Assembly: GCA_015272165.1 (NCBI GenBank)
Contig: JACYMF010000030.1
Coordinates: forward strand, 1 to 64,000
DNA from: Cyanobacterium sp. T60_A2020_053
GTDB taxonomy: Bacteria; Cyanobacteriota; Cyanobacteriia; Cyanobacteriales; Cyanobacteriaceae
DNA length: 64,000 nt
Direction: 5' to 3'
Below are positions 43,781 to 50,545 of the stretch, piece after piece (the stretch's first letter is position 1; each line of letters opens with the position of its first letter). A model generated the notes under the pieces. That model saw only the letters and a list, made by a program, of their open reading frames with translations, was not told the origin of the DNA and ran no database searches. Position numbers and translations under genes: made by a program.

Positions 43781-45535
43781 ATGCCCTACGAAGAATTAAA
43801 AATACAAACTCCAAATCCTGTTTTATCTTGGGCTAGTCATGAGTTAGGTTGGCATGAAACCCAGATGGCTAAAAATGTCGCTTCTTTGCCTTTTGTTTAC
43901 AAACACGTTGCCCTCATGCCAGATGTCCATTTGGGGAAAGGGGCGCTGGTGGGCTCAGTTATCGCTACGAAAGACGCTATCATCCCGGCAGCGGTGGGAG
44001 TTGATATTGGTTGTTTTACGGAAGATACTTTAATTCCATTGGTGGATGGTAAATCTTATCCTCTCGGAGAGTTAGCTAAAAAAGGTAGTCCTATTCATGT
44101 TTATTCTTGTACACCTAGTGGCAAAATAGTCGCCACGAAAGCGTTAGCTCGATTAACTCGCACTCAAGCGCCCCTCGTCAAGGTTGTTCTTGATAACGGT
44201 GAAGAAATTAAATGTACTCCAGATCACTCATTTATGTTGAGAAATGGGGAATATCAAGAAGCTCAAAATTTATTACCGAATACTTCTTTGATGCCGTTTT
44301 ACTCTAAAGTTGATTGGGATGGATATACTTTAATTCAACAAAATTACTCAGGGCGATGGCAAAAAGCTCATTGGATAGTAGCACGATCTGGACTTTTAGG
44401 GGAAGTGCCTAAATTTGAAGGTCAGAAAACTGTTATTCATCATCAAAATTTTGAGGAAAGTAAAAGCACCTATAATCATAAAGTTATCGCAGTTATACCT
44501 TTAACGGAAACTCAAGACGTTTATTGTTTAAGTGTGCCTGAATATCATAATTTTGCACTTAAAGCAGGGGTTTTTGTGCATAATTGCGGAATGAGCGCCC
44601 TCCAAACGCCCTTTAAAGCGGATCAATTAGAAGGAAAATTAAAAAAAATTCGTCAAGATATTGAAGCTCAAATTCCTGTGGGTTTTAATGACAATAAAGA
44701 TGTAGAAACTACCGTGAGTAATTGGCAGGGATGGCAAGGATTTCAGCATCTCCATGAAGGGGTGCAACGGTTAGAAGGTAAAGCATTAAAGCAAGTTGGC
44801 TCATTGGGCGGTGGTAATCACTTTATTGAGCTTTGCATCGATACGGAAAATCAAGTTTGGTTGATGTTACATTCTGGTTCTCGTCATATTGGCAATCAGT
44901 TGGCAGACTGTCACATTAGAACCGGTAAGCAGTTGGCGCGATTAGCTAATCTGAAGTTAGCTGACCCTGATTTAGCTTATTTTATCAAAGGTACGGCAGA
45001 ATTTGAGGCTTATTGGCGTGATTTGCAGTGGGCGCAAAATTATGCTCGTTTTAACCGTGATGTGATGATGAGTCGTTTTAAAGCCATTGTGGAAAAACAT
45101 TTGGTGGGCGGAAAAGCAACTAAACCTCTTTTAACAGTGAATTGTCATCATAATTATGCGGAGATGGAAAGTCATTTCGGTGAGGATGTCTATGTGACGA
45201 GGAAGGGCGCTGTTAGGGCGGATGTGGGTGATTATGGTATTATTCCCGGTTCCATGGGCGCTAAGTCTTTTATCGTTAAGGGTAAAGGTAATCATGATAG
45301 TTTTTGCTCATGCAGTCACGGTGCGGGGCGCGCTATGTCTCGCTCTCAGGCTAAAAAGCGTTACACTGTAGAGGATTTGATCACTCAAACCGATGGCATT
45401 GAATGCCGTAAGGATAGTGGGGTTATTGATGAAATTCCCAGCGCCTACAAGTCTATCGAGGAAGTGATGAATCAACAAACTGATTTGGTGGAAATAGTTG
45501 CCACTCTGAAACAGGTGGTTTGTGTGAAGGGTTAA
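43781..45535 (+). CDS. rtcB: RNA-splicing ligase RtcB with an in-frame intein
   Basis: RtcB joins RNA ends bearing 2',3'-cyclic phosphate or 3'-phosphate to 5'-OH ends, using GTP and manganese. 584 codons, of which 191 are an intein; the spliced ligase is ~393 residues. The intein sits between GVDIG and CGM, immediately before the metal-binding active-site cysteine. Extein motifs: ALMPDVHLGKG, SLGGGNHFIEL, HSGSRHIG, VNCHHNYAE, SHGAGRAMSR (guanylylated histidine region). No archease gene is adjacent. Activity depends on correct splicing. Confidence 0.95.
   Translation: MPYEELKIQTPNPVLSWASHELGWHETQMAKNVASLPFVYKHVALMPDVHLGKGALVGSVIATKDAIIPAAVGVDIGCFTEDTLIPLVDGKSYPLGELAKKGSPIHVYSCTPSGKIVATKALARLTRTQAPLVKVVLDNGEEIKCTPDHSFMLRNGEYQEAQNLLPNTSLMPFYSKVDWDGYTLIQQNYSGRWQKAHWIVARSGLLGEVPKFEGQKTVIHHQNFEESKSTYNHKVIAVIPLTETQDVYCLSVPEYHNFALKAGVFVHNCGMSALQTPFKADQLEGKLKKIRQDIEAQIPVGFNDNKDVETTVSNWQGWQGFQHLHEGVQRLEGKALKQVGSLGGGNHFIELCIDTENQVWLMLHSGSRHIGNQLADCHIRTGKQLARLANLKLADPDLAYFIKGTAEFEAYWRDLQWAQNYARFNRDVMMSRFKAIVEKHLVGGKATKPLLTVNCHHNYAEMESHFGEDVYVTRKGAVRADVGDYGIIPGSMGAKSFIVKGKGNHDSFCSCSHGAGRAMSRSQAKKRYTVEDLITQTDGIECRKDSGVIDEIPSAYKSIEEVMNQQTDLVEIVATLKQVVCVKG
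44012..44584 (+). other. Mini-intein in RtcB, 191 residues, with HNH-like remnant
   Basis: Runs from Cys78 (CFTEDTLIPLV, block A) to Asn268 (GVFVHN, block G), with Cys269 as the +1 residue. Block B is TPDHSFML with the conserved T-x-x-H; block F is DVYCLSVPEYHNFAL. Between them, WQKAHWIVARSGLLGEVPKF followed by TVIHHQNFEESKSTYNHK resembles an HNH-type homing endonuclease missing its last part, so homing activity is probably lost while splicing residues look intact. Confidence 0.92.
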
Positions 45536-45539
45536 GGCA

Positions 45540-45575
45540 AATTGATAATGGATAATGGATAATTGATAATGAGTA
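45540..45575. repeat. ATAATGG heptamer repeat after rtcB
   Basis: GATAATG, GATAATG, GATAATT, GATAATG: imperfect 7-bp tandem units in the spacer before a family A element. The same ATAATGG/ATAATTG units occur at 29169-29200 and 43684-43720. Confidence 0.7.
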
Positions 45576-45599: not shown

Positions 45600-45740
45600 A
45601 TATCGAGTTAGTTTAATCAATTAAAAATAATCTTAGTTCAATTTATTGAACGAGATACTGTTGGTTCCGTGTAATTCATTACACGGTGGGAAAATTCCCA
45701 ACATAGCATCTATCTGTATCAGATTATCCAAACTTGATAT
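45600..45740. mobile_element. Family A MITE copy 2, 141 bp
   Basis: Left ATATCGAGTTAG, right CCAAACTTGATAT. About 100 bp of the interior is near-identical to copy 1 (10730-10881), including the hairpins GTTCAATTTATTGAAC and GTGTAATTCATTACAC. The last base belongs to the stop codon of the DndE-like gene. No coding capacity. Confidence 0.82.
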
Positions 45741-46114
45741 TAGGTTTCGACATTTAAAATAACTAAATCTTCTATACCTTTAATACTCAAATCTCCAGCT
45801 AGATAACCGATACCTCGATGAAGATGTAAGCGAAATTGGTGATTCAGGGTTTCTTCATCTAGGGGTAAGCCTTGTTCATGGCATTTTTGTTTTAATAGCA
45901 GTAATAATATATCCGCCATTTCTCCCCCAAATACCTGCCATGTCATTTCTAGGTTACTATCTGCTGGAATGGCGAAGGGCGCTGGGTTGGTTTTTTCTGC
46001 TAAAGATCGACAAAATGCCCAACGGCATAATACATTCCAATGCTCTATTTTAGTAATTCTTTTTAATTTTATTAGTTGATCTTTGGCTCTTTTTGATACT
46101 TTTATTCTTTCCAT
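45740..46114 (-). CDS. dndE: DndE-family protein (orphan)
   Basis: 124-residue protein matching DndE of the DNA phosphorothioation system: RITKIEHWNVLCRWAFCRSLAE, IPADSNLEMTWQVFGGE, and LNHQFRLHLHRGIGYLAGD. DndE works with DndB, C and D to replace a backbone oxygen with sulfur and binds nicked DNA. None of dndB, dndC, dndD, or the restriction genes dndFGH is within this window, so it is isolated here. Its TAA stop abuts a family A element. Confidence 0.88.
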   Translation of the reverse strand: MERIKVSKRAKDQLIKLKRITKIEHWNVLCRWAFCRSLAEKTNPAPFAIPADSNLEMTWQVFGGEMADILLLLLKQKCHEQGLPLDEETLNHQFRLHLHRGIGYLAGDLSIKGIEDLVILNVET

Positions 46115-46129
46115 TTTATTTTTTTTACA

Positions 46130-46258
46130 TAGGGGGTGCTGAAAAAGTATTTTAGTGAAGGTAGGGAAGAGGGAAGGGGGAAAAGTCCGAAATATTTATA
46201 AATCAAAGACTTTAGCAAAGCCGTTATTTTTAATCAGGGATACCAAAAATAGCCTTAA
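46130..46258. repeat. Family C element copy, inverted
   Basis: Starts TAGGGGGTGCTGAAAAAGTA, the inverted right terminus of family C, then TTTTAGTGA, and further ATAAATCAAAGACTTT and ATACCAAAAATAG in reverse order. It lies 15 bp upstream of the dndE start codon. The other terminus is not seen. Confidence 0.6.
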
Positions 46259-49925: not shown

Positions 49926-50545
49926 AACTGACGTTACGCAGCTTTGAGTAATCGTAGCTTATTCATAGCTTCTTGAAGCGCTTTAATGTAGATATGACTT
50001 CTCAGGGCAAAATGATTTATTTTGTGTTTAATTTTTAAGCATTCTAATTGAAATGCTGCATATATCGACATAAAAATATGGTTACACTGAGTGCGAACAC
50101 ATTTGGTCTGTGAATTTGCCAAACCCGTATTAGATTTTAGGGTTTTGTGAAAAACTTCTACTTTCCACCGTTTTTGGTAGATTGTTTCTATTTCAGTTTC
50201 ATTGCAGTCTAAATCACTACAGGCTAGATAAAGAATCCCGACGCTATCATCTTTGTTTGTAAAGATTTGTCGATGAAGTAAAATCGGAAATTCTACTCCA
50301 TCCTCTTCCTCTTCTCTCCTTATTACCGGCTTTACCAATTGCCAGAGTTGCTTTGAATCAAAGTCCGACTCTGATAGAAACCTTGTTACTTTATCATGAC
50401 TTATATTTCCTTTTAATGCTTTTGATAAACCCGTGGCTGTCACTTCATGAAAAGAGCTGATTAAATAATCGCTATAAAGTTCCATCAGTTGTTTGTTCAT
50501 TTTTTTATCATACCTCTTCTATTACTCCCCTGCGTAACATCAGTT
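49926..50545 (-). mobile_element. Internally deleted insertion sequence with 16-bp terminal repeats
   Basis: Terminal inverted repeats AACTGACGTTACGCAG and CTGCGTAACATCAGTT (15 of 16 pair) bound a 620-bp element holding one shortened transposase ORF. No clear target duplication is visible. A related 99-bp element at 57868-57966 has similar ends. A full-length helper elsewhere in the genome could still move both. Confidence 0.85.
49934..50500 (-). pseudogene. Transposase with internal deletion (IS4/IS701-like)
   Basis: 188 codons that read through: the N-terminal part (DYLISSFHEVTATGLSKAL, SHDKVTRFLSESDFDSKQLWQLVKP) is joined in frame to the C-terminal part (FPILLHRQIFTNKDDSVG, IETIYQKRWKVEVFHKTLKSN). 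The YQKRWKVEVFHKTLK stretch holds the DDE glutamate. As I recall full-length relatives of ~370 residues, the region with both catalytic aspartates is missing at about residues 65-68. It may be translated but should not transpose. Confidence 0.82.

Follow-up and report, generated by a model that had tools for sequence, protein, structure and literature searches.

A solitary dndE gene in a Cyanobacterium genome looks like part of a dispersed DNA sulfur-modification and phage-defense system

The dndE gene of Cyanobacterium sp. T60_A2020_053 looks like part of an apparently complete DNA sulfur-modification and phage-defense system whose genes lie far apart. The gene was found in a stretch of 64,000 nucleotides (the window; contig JACYMF010000030.1 of assembly GCA_015272165.1), and we followed it through the rest of the genome and through related genomes. 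With a probability of roughly 0.75, we read it as encoding a working DndE that would act in trans with DndC and DndD, together with a Pbe-like module, in a set that is dispersed and vertically inherited. What this analysis itself provides is the presence of the genes, their family assignment, intact motifs, purifying selection, and co-retention without linkage. Articles are cited by PMC number.

The sequence-only reading had called the gene a clear DndE homologue, and profile searches and the predicted fold bear this out. The product scored 130 bits with NCBIfam TIGR03184 (curated cut-off, 71.85) and 155.8 bits with Pfam PF08870 (cut-off, 25). Run against PDB chains, a profile built from 44 DndE homologues hit the three solved DndE sequences (E values of 1.4e-7 to 1.2e-4); nothing else reached E 1. 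The gene and the parts of its product discussed here are as follows.

45740-46114, minus strand: dndE, ATG start, 124 amino acids plus stop codon
46001-46108, minus strand: first strand-helix-helix unit, residues 3-38 (in the model, strand E3-5 and helices H8-21 and H26-38)
45794-45949, minus strand: second strand-helix-helix unit, residues 56-107 (in the model, strand E56-58 and helices H59-80 and H87-107)
46049-46069, minus strand: basic patch, residues 16-22 (K16, K18, R19, and K22), from the alignment of 44 sequences

The AlphaFold2 model (mean pLDDT, 91.2; pTM, 0.85) runs strand-helix-helix twice, which is the fold of solved DndE. With Foldseek, the three solved DndE entries matched at E 4e-6 to 5e-4, and DndE entries were the sole matches listed at E 0.001 or better. 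Alignment of the model to 7x4e, 4lrv, and 5wtu gave Z scores of 17.0, 13.6, and 13.4; the VIA-align rows listed after DndE were F-plasmid relaxosome chains at Z 8.0-8.8 and then entries at Z 3.5 or less. The predicted fold thus matches solved DndE and does not place the protein in a different family, the outcome that had been named in advance as speaking against the homology. By analogy with PMC10853773, the first unit would be a ribbon-helix-helix. The basic residues are conserved in the alignment (K16 in 40, K18 in 42, R19 in 41, and K22 in 42 of the 44 sequences) and align with K18, K20, G21, and G24 of E. coli DndE. Of the E. coli basic residues implicated in nicked-DNA binding, K18 and K20 are kept here and K17 corresponds to I15. 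E. coli DndE engineered to G21K/G24K binds DNA more strongly (PMC9239217). Because the natural R19 and K22 resemble these engineered exchanges, the window's DndE can reasonably be expected to bind nicks more strongly than the E. coli form.

As the sequence-only reading had it, dndE stands alone. It is flanked by RtcB, which carries an intein, and by an SGNH/GDSL hydrolase, and the other markers of the system are on other contigs. The intein in RtcB (43781-45535, plus strand) was seen as an Intein_splicing match at residues 86-268 of 584. The "repeats on both sides" reported earlier are trivial: 4.6 tandem copies of a 7-bp unit occupy 45540-45571, and a 7-bp run of 2.9 copies occupies 46163-46182. 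A repeat search for inverted repeats flanking dndE found none except one 13-nucleotide, 92% AT-rich pair, with arms at 45619-45631 and 46056-46068, the second arm within dndE. Mobile-element traces in the flanking repeats were therefore ruled out, these being just short low-complexity tandems. Elsewhere in the window, a 188-amino-acid open reading frame (49934-50500, minus strand) matches parts of transposase DDE domains only and is probably an insertion-sequence remnant.

RtcB and the hydrolase were considered as partners of DndE and ruled out, as none of nine window neighbors tested recurs beside dndE in the relatives G002 and G010. Because neighbors are not conserved beside the same genes in relatives, dndE cannot be tied to either. 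Ten window genes were also searched for in 57 loci, many spanning only 1.5 kb of flank, and besides dndE gave weak kinase/response-regulator matches only (L014, L036, and L042). Around the six loci of the window's own genome, 40 neighboring open reading frames (at least 90 amino acids, within 5 kb) were compared: in G010, none lies next to the corresponding gene again, and in G002 a single one does, only as a 26% match. Neighbors of the system genes are not conserved even inside the genus.

The claim that this dndE occurs without dndBCD proved wrong at the level of the genome, a draft of 3.36 Mb in 118 contigs (99.84% complete). One dndC lies on contig C60 (675 bits, over the cut-off) between ilvD-like and hisH-like genes, with its SGGKDS and CGDSRFGCWVC motifs intact. 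One dndD over the cut-off lies on contig C94 (613 bits with TIGR03185), with its Walker A motif intact, adjoining a moeA-like gene; all three neighbors were named from their translations. This ATPase is called dndD on TIGR03185; PADLOC gives no clean split of the genome's two ATPases and scored this one 762 with a PbeC model versus 698 with the best DndD model. A profile search found a single dndE in the genome, the copy in the window. Of dndBCD, only dndB was not found: the genome gave no match to TIGR03233 or TIGR03187, and it has no DGQHR/DndB-like protein over the cut-off, whereas 31 of the 60 genomes sampled do have one. There was likewise no dndF match (TIGR03238) in this genome or over the cut-off in any of the 60; dndF is present in every DndFGH system (PMC10853773). 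Of the genes that the sequence-only reading had proposed to look for in the rest of the genome, dndC and dndD turned up, and dndB and dndF did not. Because dndE, dndC, and dndD lie on three contigs, they do not form an operon or cluster of adjacent genes.

Additionally, the genome holds homologues of the Pbe proteins. The genes dndC, dndD, pbeC, pbeD, and pbeA are each on a contig of their own, all apart from dndE. A second DndD-like ATPase, on contig C8, scored 123 bits with TIGR03185, under the cut-off of 245.85, and in PADLOC 885 bits with PbeC versus 140 for the best DndD model. Its CxC motif reads CIC (residue 338), and by these features the protein is PbeC-like. A 59-amino-acid open reading frame overlaps the start of pbeC by 4 bp, is conserved in family relatives, and holds the position of pbeB; searches of the profile library and PADLOC with it returned zero matches. 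The pbeA product (contig C111) scored 616.8 bits with TIGR04095 and 518 bits with PADLOC PbeA. An HKD (PLD-like) nuclease domain is usual on PbeA (PMC10853773). Here, there was no PLDc match, and the PADLOC match begins at profile position 221 of 672; Halorhabdus PbeA is likewise without a PLDc match. Because its PbeA is without the HKD nuclease domain, we filed the module as "Pbe-like." The pbe genes do not make up a single cassette, only the putative pbeB and pbeC being linked.

The PbeD slot is occupied by a TIGR04062 protein (contig C62, 163.4 bits). TIGR04062 also matches the gene directly 3' of pbeC on plasmids from Halorhabdus (52.6 bits), Natrinema (41.3 bits), and Rhizobium (78.4 bits), of which only the Rhizobium score exceeds the cut-off of 74.25. 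A profile of the cyanobacterial PbeD-slot proteins finds the same three plasmid proteins. The archaeal PbeD-slot proteins annotated as hypothetical (L208:10046-10525 and L210:11034-11516) are relatives, below the cut-off, of "DNA phosphorothioation-associated protein 4" (TIGR04062). Comparison of PbeD with DndE gave an hhalign probability of 1.1%, a PbeD model from just four sequences had a pLDDT of 39, and a sequence search of the PDB gave one match, at E 0.75. On Pseudanabaena galeata plasmid pPg_01 (L211), the order of the pbe set is pbeA, a small gene, pbeC, Uma2, and pbeD, beside type I-D CRISPR genes, and dndCDE are not annotated in the 26 kb shown. On a Rhizobium indigoferae plasmid (L209), pbeB-pbeC-pbeD-pbeA are followed by a PAPS-reductase-family gene and genes for an ATP-binding protein, DUF4007, and a cysteine desulfurase, which are possibly another sulfur-modification module.

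We compared the layout of six markers (dndE, dndC, dndD, pbeA, pbeC, and pbeD) across the 60 genomes, calling markers clustered when at most 15 kb separated neighbors. All six fall in one cluster in seven genomes (G015, G025, G027, G033, G045, G046, and G052). Where the parts stand together in relatives of other families they show, with variations, the order helicase, small protein, pbeC, pbeD, DGQHR/DndB-like, dndC, dndD, dndE; many genomes are intermediate between the clustered and scattered layouts. The window's family has 15 sampled members, including the window's genome. Thirteen carry all six markers, each marker being alone by the 15-kb rule or on a separate contig; the remaining two, whose assemblies are incomplete (63% and 67%), have three and four markers, which likewise lie apart. 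In seven near-closed family members (G002, G003, G007, G008, G010, G011, and G014; 1 to 10 contigs), a single contig carries all six markers, the shortest distance between any two being 72 kb (pbeC and dndD in G011). Of 46 named-record loci, 26 extend for 7.5 kb or more to both sides of dndE (24 cyanobacterial and two not); in six of the 26, all six cyanobacterial, neither dndC nor dndD lies in the stretch that was fetched. The clustered state would be older than the scattered state.

The markers are kept together despite the absence of linkage. Among the 60 relatives, dndE was over the cut-off in 50, dndC in 51, dndD in 51, pbeD in 52, and pbeA in 51. Five genomes under 90% complete were left out of the next count. 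Of the other 55, 47 carry all six markers and five carry none, two are without dndE only, and one is without dndC only. These three one-marker absences are explained, or plausibly so, by contig ends. In G016, dndD stops 6 bases short of the contig end; in G018, dndD is on the minus strand 472 bases from the contig start, with dndE expected beyond; and in G032, dndD is cut at the contig start, so that an assembly gap plausibly accounts for the missing dndC. The counts depend on several decisions. PbeC was scored through TIGR03185 matches below that family's cut-off. We counted as present pbeC in G006 (63.8 bits) and G005 (two TGA codons inside), dndD and pbeD at contig edges in G032, pbeA below the cut-off in G001 and G026, and dndC in G002 (two frame pieces) and G054 (positions 2-343). 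Second copies of dndD in G031, dndC in G037, and pbeD in G054 were ignored. In G042, a truncated dndC (398 bits, over the cut-off) and a dndD fragment (100 bits) were counted as absent; this locus (L207, G042:C6:233000-252000) holds the truncated dndC, a 71-amino-acid start of dndD, and zero other markers and is a dnd relic. Pairwise Fisher tests of marker co-occurrence gave P values of 2.9e-7 to 3.5e-5, which overstate independence because the genomes are related and losses are few. The five good-quality genomes without the set fall in four families of the sample.

In the closed close relative G002, dndC consists of two overlapping matches in different open frames (G002:C1:2405057-2406390); this split may be a frameshift, leaving the system broken there, or a sequencing error. 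TIGR04096 (dnd_rel_methyl) was tried as a seventh marker and dropped after the result, as it does not follow the set: it is over the cut-off in 53 of the 60 genomes, including the dnd-minus G035, G042, and G049, and not over it in the dnd-plus G029, G054, and G056. Its use as a contrast to the co-retained set was picked after the fact. The family's name, "DNA phosphorothioation-associated putative methyltransferase" (e.g., at G000:C98:16630-18471), may mislead.

Within the window's family, dN/dS for the seven genes was 0.09-0.38 over 24 comparisons in which dS is near saturation, values that indicate purifying selection on all seven. The protein distance matrices of DndE, DndC, DndD, and PbeC correlate (r of 0.52-0.85; Mantel P of 0.001 or less; 11 to 19 genomes), as expected from shared vertical descent.

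From these data, we infer a complex, phosphorothioate (PT) formation, defense, and a change from clustered to scattered genes. DndE, of the type that pairs with DndD, would act in trans with DndC and DndD encoded elsewhere in the genome. Scanning and binding of DNA would fall to DndE and the DndD ATPase, and insertion of sulfur into the backbone to DndC plus a cysteine desulfurase. This is in line with the proposal that DndE and the DndD ATPase form a DNA-scanning core and that DndC and a desulfurase add the sulfur (PMC10853773). In a Salmonella system, deletion of dndE abolishes PT (PMC4182426). The unlinked Pbe-like module (the pbeA helicase, pbeB-pbeC, and pbeD) would read the PT mark and distinguish self from invading DNA; the DndCDEA-PbeABCD system stops a haloarchaeal virus without cutting its DNA (PMC6459918). 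A single ancestral island of seven genes, intact in some families of the order, would have been scattered by rearrangement to six sites in the window's family and inherited vertically since. We lean slightly toward the broader statement that a PT-defense system is core and chromosomal in the whole family, its seven genes at six unlinked sites being kept all-or-none by functional need alone. Loss of modification while the Pbe-like module remains is perhaps harmful, which would be a reason for such retention. Counting against the system as proposed are the PbeA without the HKD part, present in many relatives, the higher PADLOC score of dndD with the PbeC model, and the split dndC of G002.

The strongest alternative, which we hold to be possible and clearly less probable, is that the scattered genes still make PT whose main role is an antioxidant or epigenetic mark, the Pbe-like proteins being kept for other reasons. 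A near-core distribution (dndE in 50 of 60 relatives) and a lost operon structure are unusual for defense, PbeA is without its nuclease domain, and antioxidant and gene-regulation functions of PT are reported elsewhere (PMC8569181). However, the retention of pbeA, pbeC, and pbeD parallels that of dndCDE, and the three genes evolve under purifying selection, neither of which a purely antioxidant role predicts, and haloarchaeal PbeABCD also defends without cutting viral DNA (PMC6459918).

Three possibilities had come from the sequence-only reading, namely a relic, a regulator using nicked-DNA binding, and a subunit serving a dnd cluster elsewhere. The last comes nearest, except that there is no cluster, the five other markers each being on a separate contig. 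That DndE has left the Dnd pathway and become a PT-independent binder or regulator of nicked DNA is unlikely. The DndE proteins of E. coli and of an archaeon do bind nicked DNA (PMC9239217 and PMC4182426), and dndE here sits at a locus apart, presumably under a promoter of its own. Yet all five good-quality genomes that have lost dndC and dndD have lost dndE as well, a pattern that a separate role does not predict. Less likely still is the relic reading, with dndE decaying as a remnant of an earlier dnd island. The gene stands alone, and G042, in the same order, does hold relics without a dndE; however, dN/dS for dndE alone is 0.11-0.21 (five comparisons), its basic residues are conserved, dndC and dndD are intact in the same genome, and decay in G042 takes all six markers. 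Purifying selection, conserved residues, and co-retention thus all disfavor the relic. Finally, as the draft genome is in 118 contigs and no two markers share one, the scatter could be suspected to be an artefact of fragmented assembly, which is highly improbable given about 45 kb of contig on either side of dndE and the same scatter on one contig in seven near-closed relatives.

The dispersed, vertically inherited system that we favor shares dndC, dndD, dndE, and homologues of pbeA, pbeC, and pbeD, with a putative pbeB, with haloarchaeal DndCDEA-PbeABCD (PMC6459918), which is without dndFGH just as no dndF was found here, and the order helicase, small protein, ATPase, and protein of about 160 amino acids is common to the haloarchaeal plasmids and the clustered cyanobacteria. 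The haloarchaeal system is one locus, whereas here the genes are in six places with only pbeB-pbeC linked, and PbeA is without the HKD part. With canonical DndBCDE-DndFGH, it shares the DndC, DndD, and DndE families, but there is no dndB, no dndF, and no gene cluster. With CxC ABC-ATPase systems that have a clade-2 DndE, it shares a CxC PbeC that is preceded by a small protein and partnered with an SF2 helicase; unlike in those systems, linkage is limited to pbeB-pbeC and the helicase is without HKD (PMC10853773).

In cyanobacteria, vertical inheritance, incomplete clusters, and disordered operon structure are described in PMC8569181, which counted clusters only where genes are adjacent. A clustered dndC-D-E without a clear dndB is described in PMC2442094, and toxic Microcoleus has dndBC and dndDE on different contigs (PMC8546630). 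Vertical inheritance in Cyanobacteriales, disordered or split loci, and no clear dndB are common to these published sets and ours; the published Nostocales sets are without dndFGH, and no dndF was found here. The published sets are clusters or partly split clusters, and in the available portions of these three articles, Pbe parts and a co-retained, fully dispersed set go unmentioned. Our searches of open-licence articles listed no report of a completely dispersed yet co-retained dnd set. Disorder among cyanobacterial dnd genes is already published, and a fully dispersed set retained all-or-none did not appear among the articles listed.

Defense systems usually take the form of compact islands. 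If our reading is true, a defense system can be dispersed, vertically inherited, and retained as a set, and linkage is not needed for its upkeep. Surveys requiring neighboring genes would then miss the system and undercount PT systems, and in this phylum part of the sporadic distribution reported for them would be an artefact of detection. In this family, PT may be a core trait, and single-gene deletions could test its role.
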